Shown here: positions 2,352 to 60,070 of the stretch, piece by piece
How the letters are laid out: every line of letters begins with the position of its first letter
Numbering within the stretch: position 1 is the stretch's first letter
Source: Luteitalea pratensis
GTDB taxonomy: Bacteria > Acidobacteriota > Vicinamibacteria > Vicinamibacterales > Vicinamibacteraceae
Assembly: GCF_001618865.1 (NCBI RefSeq)
Contig: NZ_CP015136.1
Span: 2,329,001-2,393,000 of the forward strand
DNA length: 64,000 bases
Reading direction: 5' to 3'
Notes under the pieces: model-generated
What the model saw: the letters and a program-made list of their open reading frames with translations, nothing else
What the model was told of the DNA's origin: nothing
Database searches by the model: none
Program-made: the position numbers and the translations under genes

Positions 2352-3376
2352 CGGGGTTGCCGAAGCGTTGGCGCGGATCACAGCCGTCGACGAGCGTCGA
2401 CGATCGGGCACAGCAGGCATACCCGGGCATGCGCGGCCGCGGCGCGATCCGCGAGTCGACGGGACTCGTCCTCGTGCTGGTACTGCTGGTCGCGCTGTTC
2501 AGCGTCACCAGCGAGCACTTCCTGTCGCGGGTCACGTTCACGACGCTCGCCAATCAGTTGCCGGCACTCGCCGTGATTGTGGTCGGCATGACGCTCGTGC
2601 TGATCGCGGGCGGCATCGATCTCTCGGTCGGGTCGGTGATGGCTCTTGGTGCCGCCGTCCTCGGCGTGACGTTGACGCGCTGGCAATGGCCGGTGCCGCT
2701 GGCGCTCTCGGCGTGTGTCGGCGTCGGCGTACTGGCCGGCCTCGTCAACGGCCTGATCACCGTGCGTTGGTCGATCCCATCGTTCATCGTGACGCTCGGC
2801 ATGCTGGAGATCGCGCGCGGCGGCGCCTACGTGGCCACCGATTCCCGATCCGTCTTCGTGGGGAGCGCGCTCGACGGCGTCGGTGCACCGCTGCCTGTTC
2901 TCGGCGTCTCGCCCGCGTTCCTCGTCGCGGCACTGCTGGTCGTCGCCGGGGAGGTGTTGCTCACACGCACCGTGTTCGGCCGGTATCTCGTGGCGATCGG
3001 CACCAACCGTGAAGCTGTGCGGCTCTCGGGCATCGCGCCAGCACCGGTCGAGGTCGCGGTGTTCACGTTGTCGGGCGCCCTTGCGGGCCTGGCCGGCATC
3101 TTCCACGTGGCGTACCTCGAGTCGGTCGACCCCAACGCCGGTATCGGACTCGAGCTGTCGGCGATTGCCGCAGTCGTGATCGGCGGCACGAGCCTCATGG
3201 GCGGCCGCGGATCGGTCGTCGCGAGCTTCGTCGGCGTGCTGATCATCGTGGTCCTGCAGGCGGGACTGGCCCAGATCGGCGCCACCGAACCCACCAAGCG
3301 CATCGTGACGGGGCTGGTCATCATCACGGCCGTGATCGTCGATGCATGGCGCCGACGGTGGCAAAAGAACCGATGA
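2348..3376 (+). CDS. Sugar ABC transporter permease (RbsC type)
   Basis: Membrane permease of the ribose-type importer, 342 residues with about eight to ten hydrophobic segments. The family stretch VVGMTLVLIAGGIDLSVGSV is clear, as is GTNREAVRLSGI in the cytoplasmic loop that contacts the ATPase. The start is taken as the GTG at 2348, which overlaps the TGA of the ATPase gene; the frame stays open further upstream but only as a shadow of that gene. A 7-bp repeat array begins inside the stop codon of this gene. Confidence 0.9.
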   Translation: MTGLPKRWRGSQPSTSVDDRAQQAYPGMRGRGAIRESTGLVLVLVLLVALFSVTSEHFLSRVTFTTLANQLPALAVIVVGMTLVLIAGGIDLSVGSVMALGAAVLGVTLTRWQWPVPLALSACVGVGVLAGLVNGLITVRWSIPSFIVTLGMLEIARGGAYVATDSRSVFVGSALDGVGAPLPVLGVSPAFLVAALLVVAGEVLLTRTVFGRYLVAIGTNREAVRLSGIAPAPVEVAVFTLSGALAGLAGIFHVAYLESVDPNAGIGLELSAIAAVVIGGTSLMGGRGSVVASFVGVLIIVVLQAGLAQIGATEPTKRIVTGLVIITAVIVDAWRRRWQKNR

Positions 3377-3444
3377 ACGCTGAACGCCGAACGCTGAACG
3401 CCGAAGGGAGTCGGGAGTCGGGAGTGGGGATCGGGAATCGCCGA
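3375..3444. repeat. 7-bp tandem repeat array
   Basis: Ten consecutive heptamers in one register: GAACGCT/GAACGCC alternate four times, then GAAGGGA, GTCGGGA twice, GTGGGGA, TCGGGAA and TCGCCGA. The array begins within the TGA of the permease gene (3374-3376). Nearly the same series recurs at 3698. The whole stretch 3377-4046 holds no convincing gene apart from repeats and the leader of the next gene. Confidence 0.85.
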
Positions 3445-3490
3445 CGGCAGCATCGGGCCGTCCCGGCCTGGCGTCGTTGCCAAGTCAAGC

Positions 3491-3514
3491 GTCGACCTTA
3501 AGGTCGATGCCTAC
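3491..3514 (-). repeat. REP-like hairpin with GTAG head
   Basis: GTCGACCTTAAGGTCGAT is a near-perfect palindrome followed by GCCTAC. Read on the minus strand it is GTAG plus a hairpin, the layout of REP elements. A sibling with the same core lies at 11647. Confidence 0.6.
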
Positions 3515-3615
3515 GTACCGCAGGGCCGAGCGTCGCCGTCGCCCTTCCAGCTTCGCTGAGGCTACGGCGGACAAGTCAGGTCGACGGGGGCCAGCGCGGT
3601 GCAAAAAGACCCGGC

Positions 3616-3657
3616 CAACGCTGAACGCCGAACGCTGACCGCCGAACGCCAGTCGCC
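3616..3657. repeat. 7-bp tandem repeat array
   Basis: Six heptamers of the GAACGCT/GAACGCC family (CAACGCT, GAACGCC, GAACGCT, GACCGCC, GAACGCC, AGTCGCC), running directly into the REP-like element at 3660. Confidence 0.75.
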
Positions 3658-3659
3658 GC

Positions 3660-3683
3660 GTCGACCTGAAGGTCGACGCCTAC
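3660..3683 (-). repeat. REP-like hairpin with GTAG head
   Basis: GTCGACCTGAAGGTCGAC is a palindrome with one mismatch at its centre, followed by GCCTAC. On the minus strand this reads GTAG then hairpin. Confidence 0.6.
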
Positions 3684-3697
3684 CGGGCAGATTCGAC

Positions 3698-3753
3698 GAA
3701 CGCTGAACGCCGAACGCTGAACGCCGAAGGGAGTCGGGAGTCGGGAGCCGGGA
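3698..3753. repeat. 7-bp tandem repeat array, near copy of the array at 3375
   Basis: Eight heptamers: GAACGCT, GAACGCC, GAACGCT, GAACGCC, GAAGGGA, GTCGGGA, GTCGGGA, GCCGGGA. This is almost the same order of units as the array at 3375, which points to duplication of the array or repeated conversion. Confidence 0.8.
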
Positions 3754-3872
3754 ATCGTCGGCGGTAGCATCGGGCTGTCCCAGCCCGATGTCGTGACGAC
3801 CTGCGAATCCGCCCCAGCACCAGGCCGTGCGCATTTTCATGGCCCAGTCGCAGGACTGACACGAACTTTGGT

Positions 3873-11218: not shown

Positions 11219-11247
11219 GTATGGTCCTCGTTGACGATTGACGGTCC

Positions 11248-11303
11248 CAGGTGTGAAGTCCCAGGTCTCAGGTCTCAGGTCTCAGGTTCCAAGTCTCAGG
11301 CAC
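11248..11303. repeat. 7-bp array, CAGGTCT family
   Basis: Eight heptamers (CAGGTGT, GAAGTCC, CAGGTCT three times, CAGGTTC, CAAGTCT, CAGGCAC) upstream of the sugar isomerase-like gene. The whole of 11219-11882 is non-coding repeat mosaic apart from the nuclease promoter. Confidence 0.8.
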
Positions 11304-11490
11304 GATCTCCGCCGACGCCGACTTGTCCGCCGGAGCCTTGGCGAAGGCGGAACGCCGAACGCTCAGGCAGGGCCAGGCAATCCAGAGTCCCGATCCAGTA
11401 CCCGGTTGCCCGGTGCCCGGTGCCGATACCTCTAGACCCGGCTACTACTACGCCCGACCGCGACAAACTGTATCGTGGGCCTCATGGGTC

Positions 11491-11574
11491 ATGCCTGAGA
11501 CCTGAGACCTGATGCCTCACCCTCAGGTCTCACGCCTCAGGTCTCAAGTCTCAAGTCTCAGGTCTCAGGCTGAC
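11491..11574. repeat. 7-bp array with inverted halves
   Basis: Twelve heptamers in one register: ATGCCTG, AGACCTG twice, ATGCCTC, ACCCTCA, then GGTCTCA/CGCCTCA/AGTCTCA units and GGCTGAC. The early AGACCTG units are the reverse complement of the later CAGGTCT series, so the array could fold back on itself. Confidence 0.8.
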
Positions 11575-19666: not shown

Positions 19667-19893
19667 CGTATGTGACTCCTGCTGTGCCTTGGGGATGAGG
19701 ACGCCGGCGCAGCGTTGGCGTTCTGCAGGGGAATACGCCCGCCCTATCGGCCTCGTTCCTCGTTCATGACACGCGGCGCAAGTCTTCACGGCGATGGCAA
19801 GAAGCTGCGACAACTCGGCTCAGATCGAGGGTTGGCGCCACAAAATCGCAACATCTACGGGTACGCCTCGCTCAGTGGGATGCACCACTGGGA

Positions 19894-19998
19894 TCGGGAG
19901 TCGGGAACCGGGAGTGGGAACCGGGAACCGGGAATCGGGAATCGGGAACCGGGAACCGGGAAATCGGGAATTGGGGATCGCGGATCGGGATCGGGGAT
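19894..19998. repeat. 7-bp array, TCGGGAA/CCGGGAA family
   Basis: About fifteen units of TCGGGAA, CCGGGAA and variants, with one 6-bp and one 8-bp unit that shift the phase. The interval 19667-20049 holds no gene that I can support. Confidence 0.8.
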
Positions 19999-31642: not shown

Positions 31643-31775
31643 CTCTCAAGTCTCAAGTCTCAAGTCTCAAGTCTCAGGTCTCAGGTCTCAGGTCTGGCCT
31701 GAGACCTGCAGCCTGCCGCCTCCAGCTTCCAGCTTCCAGCTTCCGGCTTCCGGCTTCCGGCTTCCGGCTTACATA
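31643..31775. repeat. Nineteen-unit 7-bp array changing sequence in register
   Basis: Nineteen consecutive heptamers without a phase break: CTCTCAA, GTCTCAA three times, GTCTCAG three times, GTCTGGC, CTGAGAC, CTGCAGC, CTGCCGC, CTCCAGC, TTCCAGC twice, TTCCGGC four times, TTACATA. It lies directly upstream of the dienelactone hydrolase gene. The interval 31634-32016 has no gene. Confidence 0.9.
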
Positions 31776-31824
31776 TACGGCGTTCGATACGCCGGCGTTT
31801 ATCGCGTGGCCCTGCACGCGGCGA

Positions 31825-31847
31825 GTGTCGAGCAAGCTCGACACCTA
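31825..31847 (-). repeat. REP-like hairpin with GTAG head
   Basis: GTGTCGAGC-A-AGCTCGACAC-type stem followed by CTAC; same core as the elements at 49576 and 49717. Confidence 0.6.
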
Positions 31848-31861
31848 CGTGTTTGCCGGGC

Positions 31862-31889
31862 GACTCCCGACTCCCGACTCCCGACCCGT
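31862..31889. repeat. 7-bp array, GACTCCC
   Basis: Three GACTCCC heptamers and GACCCGT. A second short run, GACGTTC/GGCGTTC/AACGTTC/GGCGATT, follows near 31900-31927. Confidence 0.65.
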
Positions 31890-31952
31890 GTCGGCGTGCG
31901 ACGTTCGGCGTTCAACGTTCGGCGATTGCCGGTGCACGGTGCCCGACCGTCT

Positions 31953-32015
31953 GGCGTCAGGCGTCAGACGTGAGGCATCAGGCATCAGGCATGAGGCATG
32001 AGGCATGAGGCATTC
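31953..32015. repeat. 7-bp array abutting a stop codon
   Basis: Nine heptamers: GGCGTCA twice, GACGTGA, GGCATCA twice, GGCATGA three times, GGCATTC. It ends one base before the stop codon at 32017. Confidence 0.85.
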
Positions 32016-38528: not shown

Positions 38529-38605
38529 CGGGGCGTAGCTCAGCCTGGTAGAGCGCTCGCTTTGGGAGCGAGAAGTCGCAGGTTCGAATCCTGTCGCCCC
38601 GACCA
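38529..38605 (+). tRNA. tRNA-Pro (anticodon TGG)
   Basis: Complete 77-nt tRNA with encoded CCA. Acceptor stem CGGGGCG pairs with CGCCCCG; D-arm GTAGCTCAGCCTGGTAGAGC; anticodon arm CTCGC-TTTGGGA-GCGAG with anticodon TGG; T-arm GCAGGTTCGAATCCTGT. Two partial copies of its 3' end follow in tandem. Confidence 0.95.
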
Positions 38606-38796
38606 TCCTCGCCCTGCTCGTCCGGTCGGAGTGTCAGCCTTCAGGCCCACGGCCCCGCCTTCGGCTCGCCGTCGGGCTCGAATCCTCCTCTCGCCCCGAC
38701 CATCCTCGCCCTGCTCGTCCGGTCGGAGTGTCAGCCTTCAGGCCCACGGCTCCGCCTTCGGCTCGCCGTCCGGCTCGAATCCTGTCGCCCCGACCA
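38582..38796 (+). repeat. Tandem repeats carrying the tRNA-Pro 3' end
   Basis: The tRNA 3' end (TCGAATCCT...TCGCCCCGACCA) plus about 70 bases of flank recurs. TCGCCCCGACCA ends at 38605, 38702 and 38796, so spacing is 97 and 94 bp. In both extra copies the T-arm reads GGCTCGAATCCT in place of GGTTCGAATCCT. The flank (TCCTCGCCCTGCTCGTCCGG...) is identical for over 40 bases between the first two copies. Confidence 0.92.
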
Positions 38797-38859
38797 CTCC
38801 TCGCGTGGCTCGTGTGGTCGTCACACGGGCCGCAGGGTTTCCGCGTACATCGCCGCTGG

Positions 38860-38871: not shown

Positions 38872-41589
38872 GTGACCGGTCGCCTGCGCCGCCTCCTCCC
38901 ACCGGCCCTCGTCATCGTCCTCGCCGGCCTCGGGCTGTGGCTGGTCGTGTCGCCCGCCGGCGTGACACGACCGACGATCCTCGAGCCGCCTGGACGCAAC
39001 CAGCAGGCCTCGATCACCGGCACCGAAGCCACGCTCGTGAACGGGCGCCGCGTCACTCCCGCCGGCACCGTGCTGCGGACCCAGTCCTACAACTGGGGCC
39101 TCGCCATCAGCCCGGATCAGTCGCGCGCCGCGCTGCTGCGTGCCGACTCGATCGAGGTCGTCGACCTGTTGCCGCCGCATGACATCCGGCGCTACCCGCC
39201 GCGTGGCACGAAGGTCCCCGCGTTGGGCACCGGTACCTACATGGGGATCGCCTTCGCGCCCGACGGCAAGTCGATCTTCTACGGCAATGCCAACGAAGGG
39301 CAGATCCTGCGGCTCGATCTCGCGAGCGGCGAGATCGTCGCCACCATCGACATCGACGACGGCGGCATCGAGGACAGCTTCGTCGGCGACTTCGTCCTCA
39401 CGCGCGACGGCCGCACGCTCGTTGCCGTTGACCAGTTCAACTTCCGGTTGGTCACCGTGGACGTGGCGAGCGGCCAGGTGCGCCAGTCGGTCCGGGTCGG
39501 CAGGCATCCCTTCGCGGTGGCCCTCTCGCCTGACGAACGCACGGCGTGGGTCTCCAACGTCGGCATGTTCGAGTACCCGCTGATCCCTGGCGTCACGCCG
39601 GACAACCGTGCCACCGCCGGCATCACGTTTCCGGCGTACGGCGTTCCATCGGCGGAGGCAGAGCAGGGCACCGTCGCCGAGGGGCAGTCGATCCCCGGGC
39701 TGGGTCCGTTGAATCACCCCGACGCGATGTCGGTGTTCAAGGTGGACCTCGCCAGCGGCCAGGTGACGCAGAAGATCCACACCGGGTACCTCGTCGGCGC
39801 CGACCGCGACGACATCAGGACCGTCGGCGGCGCGAGTCCTGGCGCACTGGCGGTCGCGCGCGACCGCGTCTACGTGTCCAACGCCACCAACGACACGATC
39901 ACCGTCCTCGACGCGGGTACCGGAAAGCGCCTGGCCGACATCGCGCTGAACGTGCCGGGCCTCGAGACGCTGCGTGGCGTGCTCCCGTTCTCGGTCGTCC
40001 TGTCGCCAGACCAGTCACGCCTCTACGTCGCATGTGCCGGGTTGAACGCCGTGGCGGTGATCGACGTCCATACGCGCGCGATCGAGGGGTATGTCCCGGC
40101 CGGCTGGTTCGCGGCCCTCGTCGCGGTGTCGGTCGACGGCCAGCGACTCTACGTGTCGAGCGCCAAGGGCCTTGGCTCCGGGCGCAACGCGGGCCCGGGG
40201 TTCGACGACCCGGGCCGCGGCCTGCATCCCGGCGACATCATGCAGGGCACCCTGCAGATCGTCGAGACTCCGCGCGGCACGACGCTGTCCGACGGCACCC
40301 GTCAGGTGATCGACAACACCTACGCGGCGCGCGAGGTGCCGCCGTTGCTGGCGCGGACGTTGCCGTACGCGAACTCGCGGTTCGAGGGCCCGATCAAGCA
40401 CATCGTGTTCGTGGTCAAGGAGAACCGCACCTACGACCAGGTCTTCGGCCAGCGACGCGACGCGCGCGGCAATCCATCGGGGGCCACGCTCGGGCTCGGC
40501 GTGCGCGTGGCGAGCAAGGACGGCCGCCGTGTCCTGCCCCGCGTCGACGTGACGCCGAATCATCACGCCCTCGCCGATCGCTTCGCCATCAGCGACAACT
40601 TCTACTGCGATGCAGACCAGTCCAACACCGGGCACCGCTGGGTGGTCGGTGTGTATCCCAACGAGTGGGTCGAGGTGAATGCACGGTCACGCATCGAGGC
40701 GCGCCCGTTCGGACCGGCTCCCGGGCGTCGCAACGTCAACGGCTCCAGTGCCGTCGTCAATCCCGAGGACTACAACGAGGCCGGCGCGCTCTGGGAGCAC
40801 CTCGCCCGGCATGGCGTCCCGTTCTTCAACTTCGGGTTCGGAGCCGAGATGCCGCAGTCGATCGAAGCGCAGATGCACAAGGAGACCGGCATCCGGATGA
40901 CGGTGAGCTTCCCGCTGCCCAAGCCCCTCTTCGATCGCTCCTCGCGGAAATACCCGACGTTCAACATGGCAATCCCGGACCAGTACCGGATGGACATGTT
41001 CGAAGAAGAGCTTCGCACCCGCTGGGAGAGCGGGGTCGAGTCCTTCCCCTCACTTGTCACCATCGTCTTACCAAACGATCACATGACGTCGGAGCACCCC
41101 GAGGATGGGTATCCCTTCCGCGAGTCGTACGTCGCCGACAACGACCTGGCGCTGGGCCGGCTGGTGGAGCGCCTGTCGCATTCGCGGTGGTGGGACGACA
41201 TGCTGATCATCGTCACCGAGGACGATCCGCAGGGAGGCACCGACAGCGTCGACGCGCATCGGTCGCTGCTGATGCTCATCAGCCCGTGGGTCAAGCGCGG
41301 CTACGTGTCGCCGGTGCTCGCCAGTTTTGGATCGCTGATGCGGCTGCAGTTCACGCTGCTCGGCCTGCCGCCGCTGAACCAGTTCGACGGCGCCGCCACG
41401 CTGATCGACGACGTCTTCAGCGATTCGCCGGACATCACGCCGTACGACGCGCGTCCGTCCGACCTGCGCCTGTTCGACCCGCAGCTCGCGTTCAAGCCGT
41501 TCGCCCGTCGCTTCAACTGGCGCGGGCTCGCGACCTCACGGGCGATGGACGATCCCGACGACATGCGGCGCGACCTGGACGACGACTAG
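38872..41589 (+). CDS. YncE-like propeller fused to a phosphoesterase (PF04185 type)
   Basis: Protein of 905 residues with one N-terminal membrane segment (LVIVLAGLGLWLVVSP). Residues about 55-490 form a seven-bladed YncE-like propeller (YMGIAFAPDGKSIFYGNANE, HPFAVALSPDERTAWVSNVG, PFSVVLSPDQSRLYVACAGL). From about 505 it is an alkaline-phosphatase-superfamily phosphoesterase with IKHIVFVVKENRTYDQVFG, NHHALADRFAISDNFYCDAD and TEDDPQGGTDSVDAHRS as metal/active-site segments. PF04185 members include phospholipase C and acid phosphatase. It probably acts in the periplasm. The start is GTG 38872; its stop shares CTAG with the next gene. Confidence 0.87.
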   Translation: MTGRLRRLLPPALVIVLAGLGLWLVVSPAGVTRPTILEPPGRNQQASITGTEATLVNGRRVTPAGTVLRTQSYNWGLAISPDQSRAALLRADSIEVVDLLPPHDIRRYPPRGTKVPALGTGTYMGIAFAPDGKSIFYGNANEGQILRLDLASGEIVATIDIDDGGIEDSFVGDFVLTRDGRTLVAVDQFNFRLVTVDVASGQVRQSVRVGRHPFAVALSPDERTAWVSNVGMFEYPLIPGVTPDNRATAGITFPAYGVPSAEAEQGTVAEGQSIPGLGPLNHPDAMSVFKVDLASGQVTQKIHTGYLVGADRDDIRTVGGASPGALAVARDRVYVSNATNDTITVLDAGTGKRLADIALNVPGLETLRGVLPFSVVLSPDQSRLYVACAGLNAVAVIDVHTRAIEGYVPAGWFAALVAVSVDGQRLYVSSAKGLGSGRNAGPGFDDPGRGLHPGDIMQGTLQIVETPRGTTLSDGTRQVIDNTYAAREVPPLLARTLPYANSRFEGPIKHIVFVVKENRTYDQVFGQRRDARGNPSGATLGLGVRVASKDGRRVLPRVDVTPNHHALADRFAISDNFYCDADQSNTGHRWVVGVYPNEWVEVNARSRIEARPFGPAPGRRNVNGSSAVVNPEDYNEAGALWEHLARHGVPFFNFGFGAEMPQSIEAQMHKETGIRMTVSFPLPKPLFDRSSRKYPTFNMAIPDQYRMDMFEEELRTRWESGVESFPSLVTIVLPNDHMTSEHPEDGYPFRESYVADNDLALGRLVERLSHSRWWDDMLIIVTEDDPQGGTDSVDAHRSLLMLISPWVKRGYVSPVLASFGSLMRLQFTLLGLPPLNQFDGAATLIDDVFSDSPDITPYDARPSDLRLFDPQLAFKPFARRFNWRGLATSRAMDDPDDMRRDLDDD

Positions 41590-43724
41590 CCGTTGGGGGC
41601 GTCGACACTCGCGATGAGCCAGGTACCTCCTGTCCGCTGCAACGCGAACCGCCACCGGCCCTGCTGGATGCGCGTCGAGGAGTCGCCGACGCGCGGCCGG
41701 TAACGTCGCGTGCCAAGGCACGAGGCAATGGCACTGTCGCCGGTCACGGCGGTCGTGCACGACAACAGCGTCAGTCGCTGCTCACGCAATCCGGTGAACG
41801 TCTTGACCAGCGCCTGGCGGTCAGCCGACGGCCACACCGCCTTGGTGGCGCGGGCGTCCTGCCGGTTGTACGCGACGGCATAGCGCTGGATGGCGCCGAG
41901 TACGGCGGGCGCGGCCTGCGGTCGCGGCCGCGGTGCACTCGGCGTCACCGGCAGTCCGATGCCGGGAAACGTCTCGGCAGGAATCGTGACGGGGAACGGG
42001 GACACCGGCGCCTTCACGAGGCGGCTGGCCGGCACCATGCGCTGCAGCACCGTTGACGACCCGACGGCTCCGGTTTCCGCAGGCGCCGGGCGCGTCAGAT
42101 GCGGCGGAGATTCGGTGGCGGCGACATTTGCCGTGGCCGGCACTGGCGGTCCGCCGACGATGGCGAAGAGGACGCCCATCAGCATCCCGCCACCGACGAG
42201 GGCGAACCGCTCGACGGGTTCGACGCGGGATCGGGCCAGGGCAGCGCGCGCCGCAATGACCCAGGCACGCATGTGTGCCGCCGCCAGGTGCGGGCGTCCG
42301 GGGAAGGGCACCGCGTGTGTCTCGTCGAGCACCGGGATCTCCGGCGCGTCCATGGCCGGCTCCTCCGGGATCGCCCACGGCTCCGCGGCCGGCGGCCACT
42401 CGGATTCCGGCGTCGCCTCGATGAACTCCACGACCTGCGGCCACTCCCTGGTGAGCACCACTTCCCTGGCTTCCGGCTGCCCGGTGGCCCGCGGCAGTTC
42501 CACGATCGGTGGCAACGCGGCGACTTGCGGCACCTCGTGGGGCTCCGGCAACGCGTGCGCGGCAAGCAGCGCGTGGACGTCCGGCGGAGCCTGGAACACG
42601 TGCAGCACCGGTACGTCCAGGAACTCCAGGTTCTCCCGCAACTGCAGGGCCATCGCCATGTCGAGGACGTCCGGTGCCTGCAGCACCGGAGGCGGGTCCG
42701 GCACTTCGGCGTGTGCCGCCGCCTGTTGCGGGAGTTCCGGCAGTTCCGGCCACTGCGCCGCCTGCGGCGTGTCCTCCGCAGCCTCGAACTGCGGCACCGT
42801 CGGTACGTCCGCATGCTTGTGCTGCGGCAGGGCCGTGGCCACGTCGAGCAACTCCGCCGCCTGCAGCACCAGGGGCACGTCCGGCATGTCGGTCAGCGCC
42901 AGGACCGCCGCCAGCTCCGGAAGCGCCGCCAACTCCGGAATCTCCGAGAACTCCGGCAGCTCCGCCACATCCGGCGTGTCCTCCGCGGCCTCGACCTGTG
43001 GCACCACGGGTACGTCCACGGGCTCCGCGTTCTCACGCAGCGGTGGGGCCGTTGCCCCGTCGAGGCGTTCAGTCGCCTGCAGCACCAGCGGCACGTCCGG
43101 CATGTCGGTCAGCGCCAGGACCGCCGCCAGCTCCGGAAGCGCCGCCAACTCCGGAATCTCCGAGAACTCCGGCAGCTCCGCCACATCCGGCGTGTCCTCC
43201 GCGGCCTCGACCTGTGGCACCACCCCTAAGTCCGGGAGGTCGGGGGTTTCCCGCAACGGCAGGGCCGTGGCCGCATCCGGGAGCTCGGGCGTCTGAAGCA
43301 CCAGAGGCATGTCCGGCAGGTCGGTGTGGGTCACCGCCAGAAGCGTCGTCAGTTCCGGGAACTCCGGCGGCGCCGGCAACTCCGACAGCACTGGAAGCTC
43401 CGACAGCTCCGGAATCTCCGAGGACTCGATGGCTGGGAATGGTGATTCCGCGGCGTCGGGCCATTCGCCACTCGGCGGAGGCGTCAGCGCTTGGTCGGCG
43501 AACTGGATGCCAGGCGTGACCGCGGCGTCGGCAGGCTCGTCGAGATGCCGCCGCTTCATCAGCGCCTCGCGACAGTCCTGCGGTGCGGCGGCGGGTCGGT
43601 CGTCGACTCGCCAGAGCACCTGTCCGTCCTCCCCGTGCACGATCTCGATCACATCGAGATCCTGCAGGTCCGCGGCCGGGACAGGCCAACTGAGGTCCCG
43701 CCGCAACCGGGCCCGTGTCGTCAT
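41586..43724 (-). CDS. Repeat-rich single-pass membrane protein with C-terminal NTF2-like domain
   Basis: Protein of 712 residues that I cannot place in a known family. Residues 1-60 form a small charged head (LQDLDVIEIVHGEDGQVLWR). Residues about 100-400 are acidic, Pro/Leu/Glu-rich repeats of about 72 residues, such as TPDVAELPEFSEIPELAALP and LTDMPDVPLVLQ; two units are nearly identical. A Pro/Glu-rich spacer leads to one transmembrane helix (FALVGGGMLMGVLFAIVGG, about 512-530), a second linker, and a C-terminal NTF2/SnoaL-like domain (GAIQRYAVAYNRQDARATKA; WRFALQRTGGTWLIASVDA). The acidic repeats would be cytoplasmic and the NTF2-like domain periplasmic by the positive-inside rule (AARAALARSRVEP precedes the helix). 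Confidence 0.8.
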   Translation of the reverse strand: MTTRARLRRDLSWPVPAADLQDLDVIEIVHGEDGQVLWRVDDRPAAAPQDCREALMKRRHLDEPADAAVTPGIQFADQALTPPPSGEWPDAAESPFPAIESSEIPELSELPVLSELPAPPEFPELTTLLAVTHTDLPDMPLVLQTPELPDAATALPLRETPDLPDLGVVPQVEAAEDTPDVAELPEFSEIPELAALPELAAVLALTDMPDVPLVLQATERLDGATAPPLRENAEPVDVPVVPQVEAAEDTPDVAELPEFSEIPELAALPELAAVLALTDMPDVPLVLQAAELLDVATALPQHKHADVPTVPQFEAAEDTPQAAQWPELPELPQQAAAHAEVPDPPPVLQAPDVLDMAMALQLRENLEFLDVPVLHVFQAPPDVHALLAAHALPEPHEVPQVAALPPIVELPRATGQPEAREVVLTREWPQVVEFIEATPESEWPPAAEPWAIPEEPAMDAPEIPVLDETHAVPFPGRPHLAAAHMRAWVIAARAALARSRVEPVERFALVGGGMLMGVLFAIVGGPPVPATANVAATESPPHLTRPAPAETGAVGSSTVLQRMVPASRLVKAPVSPFPVTIPAETFPGIGLPVTPSAPRPRPQAAPAVLGAIQRYAVAYNRQDARATKAVWPSADRQALVKTFTGLREQRLTLLSCTTAVTGDSAIASCLGTRRYRPRVGDSSTRIQQGRWRFALQRTGGTWLIASVDAPNG
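42861..43225. repeat. 216-bp in-frame tandem duplication in the repeat-rich gene
   Basis: The segment beginning CTGCAGCACCAG recurs at 42861 and 43077, an exact offset of 216 bp (72 codons), and is almost identical for about 145 bases. Flanking copies at lower identity extend the array on both sides. Confidence 0.85.
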
Positions 43725-43857
43725 CGTCGCCTCGCGCTGACGCGAGTATGTGACGTTCGCGTGCGGAAGAACAGGTCAGCCATTCACCCGTAGCATTGGC
43801 AGTCCGCCAATTGCTGTGGCTCTGGCTCCCCGATACCTGTATCGCGCGCGGTGACGG

Positions 43858-43863
43858 TAGTCT
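43858..43863 (+). promoter_or_regulatory. Putative -10 box
   Basis: TAGTCT lies 14 nt before ATG 43878 and just upstream of the ribosome site AAGGA, supporting that ATG over the in-frame GTG at 43851. Confidence 0.35.
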
Positions 43864-43877
43864 GGCAAGGACGATCC

Positions 43878-46304
43878 ATGCAGATTGCCGCGTACCCCGT
43901 GTCCGGGCCCGATGCCGAAGAAGCGCGGCGCAAGGACTACAGTCTCGTCGGGACTGACACGCCGCTGGCTATCGAGCGTGGCCTGGCGGAAGCCGACTGG
44001 TACACGTCGCCCGTGCCCAGGACCGTCATGCGCGAGCTGCTCGAACGCAGCGACGGTCCGGCGCTGCGTGACACGCTCCTGTACTTCGCGTTGATCGCTG
44101 CGAGCGGGTACGCGACCTGGCGCCTGTGGGGTTCCTGGTGGGCGCTCGTGCCGATGATGGCCTACGGCGTTCTGTATGCGTCGGCGTCCGACGCGCGATG
44201 GCACGAGGCGGGACACGGTACCGCTTTCCGCACCGACTGGATGAACAACGCCCTGTACGAGCTGGCCTCGTTCATGGTGCTGCGTGAGTCGGTGCCGTGG
44301 CGGTGGAGTCACACGCGTCACCACAGCGACACGATCATCGTCGGCCGCGACCCCGAGATTGCGGTGCCGAGGCCTCCCGATCTGCGGGAGATGTTCCTCA
44401 AGTGCTTCAACTACCGCGCCTGGCGTCGTTACCTCGGCAACATCGCGATCCACTGCGCCGGCCGCGTGACGGCGATCGAGGCAACGTTCATCCCGCCGTC
44501 CGAATACGCCGCGGTGTACGTGCGGGCCCGCGTCTACGCCATCGTCCTGCTGGCGATGATCGCGTCGTGCGTGTACTACCGGACGTGGCTGCCGTTCGTC
44601 TTCGTGTTCGGCCCGAACGTGTACGGCGCGTGGCTGATGGCGGTCTACGGCTGGACGCAGCACACGGCGCTGGCGGAGAACGTCCTCGATCACCGGCTCA
44701 ACTGCCGGACGATCCTGATGAACCCGGTGCACCGGTTCCTCTACTGGAACATGAACTACCACACCGAGCACCACATGTTCCCGCTCGTGCCGTACCACCA
44801 GCTGCCGCGGTTGCACGCGATCGTGAAGGACGATTGCCCGGCGCCGTATCGCAGCCTGACGGCAGCCTACCGCGAGATGATCCCGGCGATCCTGCGCCAG
44901 CGTCGCGACCCGGGCTGGTACATCCGGCGGACACTGCCGCCCACCGCACGTCCGGTCGGCACCAGGCCCACCGCGGCCGCGATCATGACCGATGGGCGCC
45001 TGATCGTTGACGGATGGGTCGACGTGTGCGCGGCAGACGAGCTCGCAACCGAGGACGTGATGCGTGTCGACCACGCGCATCACACGTACGCGATCCATCG
45101 CACCGCGCAGGGCGCCGTGCACGCCACTGACGGGATGTGCACGCACGGCAACACGCACCTGGCCGACGGACTGGTGCTCGGGACGGTCGTCGAGTGCCCG
45201 AAGCACAACGGCCGGTTCGATGTGATCACCGGCGAACCACGACGCCTGCCCGCCTGCGTCGCGCTCAGAACCCACCGCGTGCGCGAGGAAAGCGGCCGCA
45301 TCCTGCTGGACGTGGCGCGCGTCTCCGCGCCTGGTGCGACCACGCCCGTGTACGACCTGCAGGTCGTCAGCAACCACAACGTCGCGACGTTCATCAAGGA
45401 ACTCGTACTGGCTCCGCGCGAGACCGCAGGGTCGTCGGGCGACCGGGAATCGGGAGTCGGGAGTCGAGAGTCGGCGACCGGGCTCGGCACCCAGGATGAT
45501 GCAGTCCCGACGGCCGACGGCCGAATGACGAAGGCCGGCAACGGCAATCGGTTGCCCTCGTACCTGCCCGGTCAGTACATGCAGTTGCACGTTCCGGCCT
45601 ACGGCGCCCTGCGGTTCGAGGACATCGTCGTGGACGAGCCCTATGCGTCGGTGTGGCGAGCGCATCATCTCTTCGATCTCGGGGCGGGCAACGACCTCGA
45701 GATGAAGCGCAACTACTCGATTGCCACCAACCCGGCGTCGGCGGCGCGAGAACTGCGCTTCAATGTCCGGATCGCGACACCACCGGCCGGCCAGGACTGC
45801 GATGCCGGTGCAGGGTCGTCATGGGTCTGGCGGCTGAAGGCGGGCGACACCGTGCAGGCAAGCGGACCCTTCGGCAGCTTCCTGGTGCCCGACGGCGAGC
45901 ACGAACTCGTCTACGTGGGCGGCGGCGCCGGCATGGCGCCGATCCGCTCGCACCTCTCGTATCTTTTCGACACCCTGCGCACCACGCGGCGCGTGACCTA
46001 CTGGTACGGCGCGCGTTCGCGTCAGGAGGCGTTCTATCTGGATTATTTCCGCGAGCTCGAAGCGCAGTTCCCCAACTTCCACTTTCACCTCGCGCTCTCA
46101 GCGCCGCTGCAGGGCGACGCCTGGGATGGGCCAACCGGTTTGATCCACGACGTGCTTCGCCGCGAACATCTCGCACGCCACGCGGCGCCAGACGCGGCCG
46201 CCTACTTCGTCTGCGGTCCCCCGGTCATGGTGCAGGCCACGCGCGAGATGCTTCGGCACGAGTTCGGCGTCGCTGCCGACGCGATCATCGCGGACGAGTT
46301 CTGA
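43878..46304 (+). CDS. Fatty-acid-desaturase / Rieske ferredoxin / NAD(P)H reductase fusion
   Basis: Single polypeptide of 808 residues that unites the three parts of a MocDEF-like oxygenase. Residues about 1-355 are a membrane desaturase with His boxes HEAGH, HTRHH and HTEHH. Residues about 370-485 are a Rieske [2Fe-2S] domain with ligands in CTHGNTH and CPKH. Residues about 505-808 are an NqrF-like FAD/NAD reductase (RNYSIATNP for flavin, GGGAGMAPIRS and VCGPPVM for NAD). Electrons would flow NAD(P)H to FAD to Rieske to the di-iron site within one chain. The substrate is unknown; rhizopine MocD and lipid hydroxylases are relatives. AAGGA precedes the ATG at 43878. The Rieske-reductase linker contains a 7-bp repeat array. 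Confidence 0.88.
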   Translation: MQIAAYPVSGPDAEEARRKDYSLVGTDTPLAIERGLAEADWYTSPVPRTVMRELLERSDGPALRDTLLYFALIAASGYATWRLWGSWWALVPMMAYGVLYASASDARWHEAGHGTAFRTDWMNNALYELASFMVLRESVPWRWSHTRHHSDTIIVGRDPEIAVPRPPDLREMFLKCFNYRAWRRYLGNIAIHCAGRVTAIEATFIPPSEYAAVYVRARVYAIVLLAMIASCVYYRTWLPFVFVFGPNVYGAWLMAVYGWTQHTALAENVLDHRLNCRTILMNPVHRFLYWNMNYHTEHHMFPLVPYHQLPRLHAIVKDDCPAPYRSLTAAYREMIPAILRQRRDPGWYIRRTLPPTARPVGTRPTAAAIMTDGRLIVDGWVDVCAADELATEDVMRVDHAHHTYAIHRTAQGAVHATDGMCTHGNTHLADGLVLGTVVECPKHNGRFDVITGEPRRLPACVALRTHRVREESGRILLDVARVSAPGATTPVYDLQVVSNHNVATFIKELVLAPRETAGSSGDRESGVGSRESATGLGTQDDAVPTADGRMTKAGNGNRLPSYLPGQYMQLHVPAYGALRFEDIVVDEPYASVWRAHHLFDLGAGNDLEMKRNYSIATNPASAARELRFNVRIATPPAGQDCDAGAGSSWVWRLKAGDTVQASGPFGSFLVPDGEHELVYVGGGAGMAPIRSHLSYLFDTLRTTRRVTYWYGARSRQEAFYLDYFRELEAQFPNFHFHLALSAPLQGDAWDGPTGLIHDVLRREHLARHAAPDAAAYFVCGPPVMVQATREMLRHEFGVAADAIIADEF
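45443..45484 (+). repeat. 7-bp array inside a coding region (linker)
   Basis: Six heptamers in register (CCGGGAA, TCGGGAG twice, TCGAGAG, TCGGCGA, CCGGGCT), the same type as the intergenic arrays at 3375 and 19894. It encodes the linker piece DRESGVGSRESATG, which has a 7-residue period. Confidence 0.85.
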
Positions 46305-59891: not shown

Positions 59892-59899
59892 GGGAGAAA

Positions 59900-59997
59900 G
59901 GACGGAGGACGGAGGAGGGAGGACGGAGGAGGGAGGACGGAGGAGGGAAGATGGAGGTCTGAGGTCTCAGGTCTCAGGTCTTAGGCCTTAGGCCTCT
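59900..59997. repeat. Fourteen-unit 7-bp array that switches family in register
   Basis: GGACGGA twice, then GGAGGGA/GGACGGA alternating, AGATGGA, GGTCTGA, GGTCTCA twice, GGTCTTA, GGCCTTA, GGCCTCT. The GGACGGA family turns step by step into the GGTCTCA and GGCCTTA families with no phase break. Confidence 0.92.
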
Positions 59998-60021
59998 GTT
60001 ACCCATGTGTCCGGCGGTGCG

Positions 60022-60070
60022 GGTCTCAGGCTTGAGACCTGAGACCTGAGACGCAAGGCTGCAGGCCGTT
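60022..60070. repeat. 7-bp array before the rdgB stop codon
   Basis: Seven heptamers: GGTCTCA, GGCTTGA, GACCTGA twice, GACGCAA, GGCTGCA, GGCCGTT. It ends 3 bases before the stop codon at 60074. Confidence 0.78.

Follow-up and report, generated by a model that had tools for sequence, protein, structure and literature searches.

VirB8-type proteins consist of a cytoplasmic tail, one helix and a periplasmic NTF2-like domain. The general plan of an extracytoplasmic NTF2-like domain, a membrane helix and an intracellular signalling part was described in 2013, when NTF2-like domains outside the cell, connected with kinases and zinc ribbons inside it, were proposed to sense ligands non-catalytically and VirB8 was named among the NTF2-like structures (PMC3924330). 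A protein with an acidic repeat array, encoded in a 64-kb stretch of DNA (the window) from the one-contig genome (7,480,314 bases) of a soil-dwelling member of the Acidobacteria, was compared with these systems. From sequence comparison, it appears to belong to a family of membrane NTF2-like proteins as an orphan enlarged by repeats.

Coding frame, layout and surroundings of the gene

The ORF (minus strand, start ATG, stop TAG, 712 aa; table 1) was taken as coding because the GC content by codon position was 0.82/0.44/0.87 across the repeat array and homologues matched both ends of the ORF in one frame. Antisense and other-frame ORFs over the array were dropped, since the same two observations fix the frame. 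The ORF and layout given by the first-pass annotation, a 712-residue protein with acidic repeats, one membrane helix and an NTF2-like C-terminus, were thus upheld. The whole 712-aa protein matched no curated Pfam family, in line with the first-pass annotation. Hanks-type kinase membership was checked with PF00069, which gave no match in the 712-aa protein but did match the kinases L054 and L055 of the same genome. RsgI-type anti-sigma membership was checked with the N-terminal part, for which Pfam gave nothing and NCBIfam nothing of weight. An Rfam search of window positions 41000-44500 at the gathering cut-off gave no match.

Table 1. Features of the repeat-bearing gene, in window positions.
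Feature	Position	Strand	Basis
Whole coding sequence, 712 aa, bitopic membrane protein	41586..43724	-	ORF list and homology
N-terminal motif, predicted cytoplasmic, conserved, residues 10-47 (DLSWPVPAADL...)	43584..43697	-	Shared with both paralogues and same-family relatives
Repeat unit 1, residues 100-171 (72 aa)	43212..43427	-	Self-comparison
Repeat unit 2, residues 172-243 (72 aa)	42996..43211	-	Self-comparison
Repeat unit 3, residues 244-312 (69 aa)	42789..42995	-	Self-comparison
Repeat unit 4, degenerate, residues 313-376 (~64 aa)	42597..42788	-	Self-comparison
Array tail, degenerate, acidic, Pro/Ala/Glu-rich, residues 377-480; weak repeat similarity	42285..42596	-	
150-bp tract, copy A; 149/150 same as copy B, lag 216	43074..43223	-	
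150-bp tract, copy B	42858..43007	-	
Single transmembrane helix, residues 507-525; Arg-rich stretch N-terminal to helix	42150..42206	-	Hydropathy
Predicted extracytoplasmic linker, Pro/Ala-rich, residues 526-600	41925..42149	-	
NTF2-like domain, C-terminal, residues 601-712	41589..41924	-	Structure prediction and structure matches

The gene is flanked by a divergent desaturase-Rieske-reductase fusion (ORF 43851-46304) and a convergent beta-propeller/phosphoesterase-like gene (names by inspection). No operon partner was apparent and no conjugation or secretion genes were recognised beside it, and no outer-membrane protein gene was found in the whole 64-kb window. In congener G004 the flanking genes lay 162 bp apart with nothing recognisable between them, and in congener G001 (L030, 1822900-1824100) the slot held an unrelated, ankyrin-repeat-like minus-strand ORF of 287 aa. 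Many heptanucleotide tandem arrays with differing units were seen across the window (e.g. 3374-3757, 11243-11569, 19893-19997, 31644-32013 and 59899-60052). A heptanucleotide repeat like these intergenic ones was located inside the fusion ORF (45444-45474), where it encodes RESGVGSRES, with counterparts at the same linker of the fusion in two congeners and none in two others. At 38529-38804, tRNA-Pro(TGG) was followed by a 97-bp tandem array repeating the tRNA 3' end, which might be a trace of repeated integration or duplication.

The NTF2-like domain, its relatives and their neighbours

The C-terminal 122 residues were modelled with AlphaFold together with two relatives (mean pLDDT 81.7). Among the 50 structure matches listed for the model, 3cnx was the best (Z 14.4; 109 residues, 2.0 A), and Foldseek gave E values down to 5.6e-6; membership of the domain in the NTF2-like fold superfamily was confirmed at the level of the predicted structure. 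Against Pfam, the domain alone reached SnoaL_4 at E 0.038 (14.4 bits, below the cut-off of 24), and none of the NTF2-clan families SnoaL_3, SnoaL_4 and DUF4440 scored above its gathering cut-off. DUF4878, DUF3828 and DUF3887 matched neither the 712-aa protein at E up to 10 nor ten domain relatives at E up to 1. Cys656 and Cys669 correspond to model residues 66 and 79 on the hairpin strands 56-71 and 74-87, and would therefore face each other if the modelled strand pairing is in register. Both were present in 30 of the 43 aligned domain rows, and they may form a disulphide.

The hydrophobic segment 507-525 had a mean Kyte-Doolittle value of 2.06, the next strongest segment elsewhere (1.38) lying within the repeats. 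Three observations make it most likely that the N-terminus and the repeats lie in the cytoplasm and the NTF2-like domain in the periplasm: arginines precede the helix, the domain has the cysteine pair that faces in the modelled hairpin, and Hanks kinases, with a catalytic part that has to be inside the cell, carry the same domain past their membrane helix.

Two paralogues in the same genome (435 and 394 aa) carried the C-terminal domain (48% and 39%) and no repeats, and the N-terminus of the window protein matched one of them at E 2e-6. The window protein and its two paralogues shared the motif W-P-[PV]-x3-[DE]-[LF] with relatives from two other genomes of the same family; the motif was present in 5/5 full-length members seen in the family of the source organism and in none of the other relatives listed. 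Domain matches at E 1e-15 or better were obtained in 36 of 162 genomes of Vicinamibacterales, and 8 of 297 genomes sampled across the phylum had such a match, seven of these being from Vicinamibacterales. Profile A3 (Vicinamibacterales membrane-helix/NTF2), built from a ten-row alignment, included the window protein at E 1.0e-42, with the helix ahead of the domain at 507-525. When genome contigs were scanned with a five-row alignment, two loci came up, one of them truncated by the end of its contig.

Across the order the domain recurred on single-span proteins and Hanks kinases. The parts lying across the membrane from it were protein kinase and nSTAND1 (above the Pfam cut-off) and AAA-like and TPR-like (below it), and the linkers of the relatives were unrelated to the window array and of other lengths. 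The initial statement that no family has this layout did not hold, as the membrane-helix/NTF2 plan recurs, with unrelated linkers, in the two paralogues and in relatives across the order, and the plan as such was already in the literature (PMC3924330). In the domain tree the window protein grouped with the 435-aa paralogue (support 100/100), and this pair fell inside a non-kinase, outer-membrane-protein-linked group (90/89, an open fork).

Twenty-one of the 28 non-kinase relatives, a count that includes the genome of the L057 example itself, adjoined an outer-membrane protein gene with at least 38% identity to that example, and 3 others adjoined a more distant one. When the search started from the outer-membrane protein instead, 26 of the 30 loci retrieved carried the NTF2-like domain within about 1.5 kb and a 27th (L147) had the ORF adjacent with the domain just outside the stretch, both sets of pairing counts being drawn from related genomes and not from independent events. 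The pair (L036, L039, L037, L099-L114 and others) was mostly arranged tail to tail, and was also found beside some kinases and one nSTAND1 protein. The outer-membrane protein scored near the PF13557 (Phenol_MetA_deg) cut-off, with one example above it, and is a putative beta-barrel because of this score and a signal-like N-terminus. Among profile A3 proteins an adjacent outer-membrane protein gene was frequent, not universal, and it was absent for the window gene, which appears to be an orphan paralogue or duplicate of the outer-membrane-protein-linked type; as the window gene has no such neighbour, the pairing seen in the relatives may have no bearing on its product. The openly licensed literature, in a search not aimed at the pairing by name, yielded no paper on NTF2-like/outer-membrane protein gene pairing.

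The conserved pairing is a more interesting by-product than the repeats. On a speculative reading, to which we give a minor share of belief, the window protein would be a repeat-bearing offshoot of an undescribed Vicinamibacterales two-gene envelope signalling module, in which a beta-barrel-like outer-membrane protein would signal to an inner-membrane protein by way of the latter's NTF2-like domain in the periplasm. The cytoplasmic end of the inner-membrane protein would be exchangeable (kinase, nSTAND1, AAA-like, TPR-like or docking motif), the acidic array setting the reach of the docking motif. The domain family has no curated Pfam model at threshold and, in an order common in soil, is carried on the outside of kinases and further signalling proteins. 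Should the pairing prove functional, it would offer a testable route for an outer-membrane signal to Hanks kinases and NTPases in Acidobacteriota.

Growth and possible role of the acidic array

The array comprises Pro/Glu/Leu/Ala-rich units, three clear (72, 72 and 69 residues) and a degenerate fourth of ~64, over residues 100-376, so that an earlier count of about four repeats of 72 was right for two units, near for the third and loose for the fourth. Residue identity at lag 72 was 0.305, against 0.189 as the largest shuffled value. At the DNA level, 134 consecutive bases were exact at lag 216 and 149 of 150 were identical (43074-43223 versus 42858-43007), which bears out the near-identical DNA of two repeats at a 216-bp offset seen at first pass; codon-shuffled controls had exact repeats of 16 bases at most. 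The rest of the unit (about one third) was far less alike, with only 6/26 codons identical, and the identity is therefore that of a 150-bp tract and not of a clean whole-unit copy. It looks like a conversion or unequal-exchange tract within an older array, so the description of the array as recently expanded would fit a recent exchange within it better than the fresh copying of an entire unit. The DNA of the array showed periods of 9 and 18 bases. Residues 91-480 contained 75 D+E against 9 K+R, a net charge of about -66 in 390 residues. A search of the source genome with the repeat DNA returned only the array itself, and no orthologue with repeats was found among the relatives searched across the order; the repeats are lineage-specific. 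No second genome with the array turned up to set against the first-pass view that its copy number is likely variable.

Residues 100-376 had a period of 2.99 residues (power 3.66 versus 0.22 shuffled; 0/5000 shuffles as strong), with hydrophobic, Pro and acidic residues at separate phases. The period was strongest in units 2 and 3 and missing in unit 4, and its phase shifted from unit to unit. Of the 29 residues that differ between units 1 and 2, 8 kept their class (0.28; neutral simulation mean 0.28) and the periodicity remaining in unit 1 was typical of simulated neutral descendants of unit 2, in a test with little power that covers one unit pair and 29 changed residues. In the full-length model the array was a low-confidence coil, which, being predicted from one sequence only, says little about the repeats either way.

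We consider it fairly probable that the protein is a single-span inner-membrane protein with a short N-terminal cytoplasmic motif, a disordered acidic cytoplasmic linker of ~390 residues, the membrane helix and, in the periplasm, a Pro-rich linker followed by the NTF2-like domain, its gene being an orphan duplicate of the outer-membrane-protein-linked type. The WP motif would dock a cytoplasmic partner and the periplasmic NTF2-like pocket would bind a small ligand or an envelope partner. Disorder of the array is predicted from the single-sequence model and from composition. Starting from DNA with a 9-nt period, the array may have grown through gene conversion or unequal exchange and would act as a length-tolerant flexible tether with little constraint beyond composition, a view taken because of the coil in the model, the neutral-like substitutions and the unrelated linkers of other lengths in relatives. 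Taken alone, the array is ordinary linker evolution.

An extended proline-rich rod had been suggested at first pass, and the 3-residue period is real and suits the polyproline-II pitch. It is nevertheless unlikely that selection maintains such a polyproline-II-like rod, one face hydrophobic, one of Pro and one acidic, to serve as a spacer whose length matters: the three residue classes do keep separate phases to a degree equalled by no shuffle, units 2 and 3 do show the strongest period, and 72 and 69 are multiples of 3, but the phase moves between units, unit 4 has no period, class conservation and residual periodicity equal those of the neutral simulation, the structure prediction gave a low-confidence coil, and a rod has no obvious task in the cytoplasm. 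With the phase lost between units and the changes matching neutral expectation, a selected polyproline rod is unsupported; together with these, the 9- and 18-nt periods mean that growth of the DNA sufficiently explains the 3-residue pattern, without structure.

The acidic Pro-rich disordered linker of PopZ has a proposed role in condensate formation. The recurrence of short words (E-L/I/F-P-E-L/F) across units and the strong negative charge could be read as multivalent docking sites that would gather a partner from the cytoplasm at the membrane, perhaps by condensate formation, PopZ forming polar condensates (PMC9512792); the words decay as neutrality predicts, however, no such array exists in the paralogues or relatives, and we know of no partner, so that docking sites are as doubtful as the rod. 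Least probable, and hardly to be expected, is a meaningless expansion of a GC-rich tandem array in a dispensable gene at an unstable chromosomal slot. The slot being empty in one congener and occupied by an unrelated ORF in another, the failure to find a repeat-bearing orthologue among the relatives searched and the neutral-like substitutions would agree with it; against it, no stop interrupts the frame anywhere in the array, where the codon-position GC is coding-like, and the NTF2-like domain compared with the paralogue has pN 0.25 < pS 0.59.

Comparison with known systems

The single-span protein with a flexible tether favoured here was set against five described systems. The titin PEVK segment, a Pro/Glu/Val-rich disordered entropic spring (PMC7274174), resembles the array in composition only, belongs to an unrelated eukaryotic protein and differs in that the array is nearly without lysine. 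VirB8-type single-span proteins share the order of tail, helix and periplasmic NTF2-like domain, whereas the window gene has no recognised conjugation or secretion neighbours. VirB8 did not figure among the 50 structure matches listed for the domain, which says little either way. RsgI9 of Clostridium thermocellum (PDB 7sjy, S1C-NTF2 part of a membrane anti-sigma factor) likewise bears an NTF2-like fold outside a membrane signalling protein (Z 12.6), but no anti-sigma or S1C domain was found in the window protein. In Vicinamibacterales Hanks-type kinases (e.g. L054 and L055, same genome) a low-complexity linker and a membrane helix likewise come before a homologous NTF2-like domain, while the window protein has no kinase and its cytoplasmic part would be a short motif plus repeats. 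The L055 kinase (1207 aa, same genome) has a 123/147-bp tandem array of its own (L055, 2438-3292) in the linker before its membrane helix. DUF4878, DUF3828 and DUF3887 (PMC3924330) also have an NTF2-like fold outside the membrane that is connected by membrane helices to intracellular parts; the window protein, in contrast, matches none of these Pfam models, carries its domain at the C-terminus with a conserved cysteine pair, and belongs with relatives most of which adjoin an outer-membrane protein gene.
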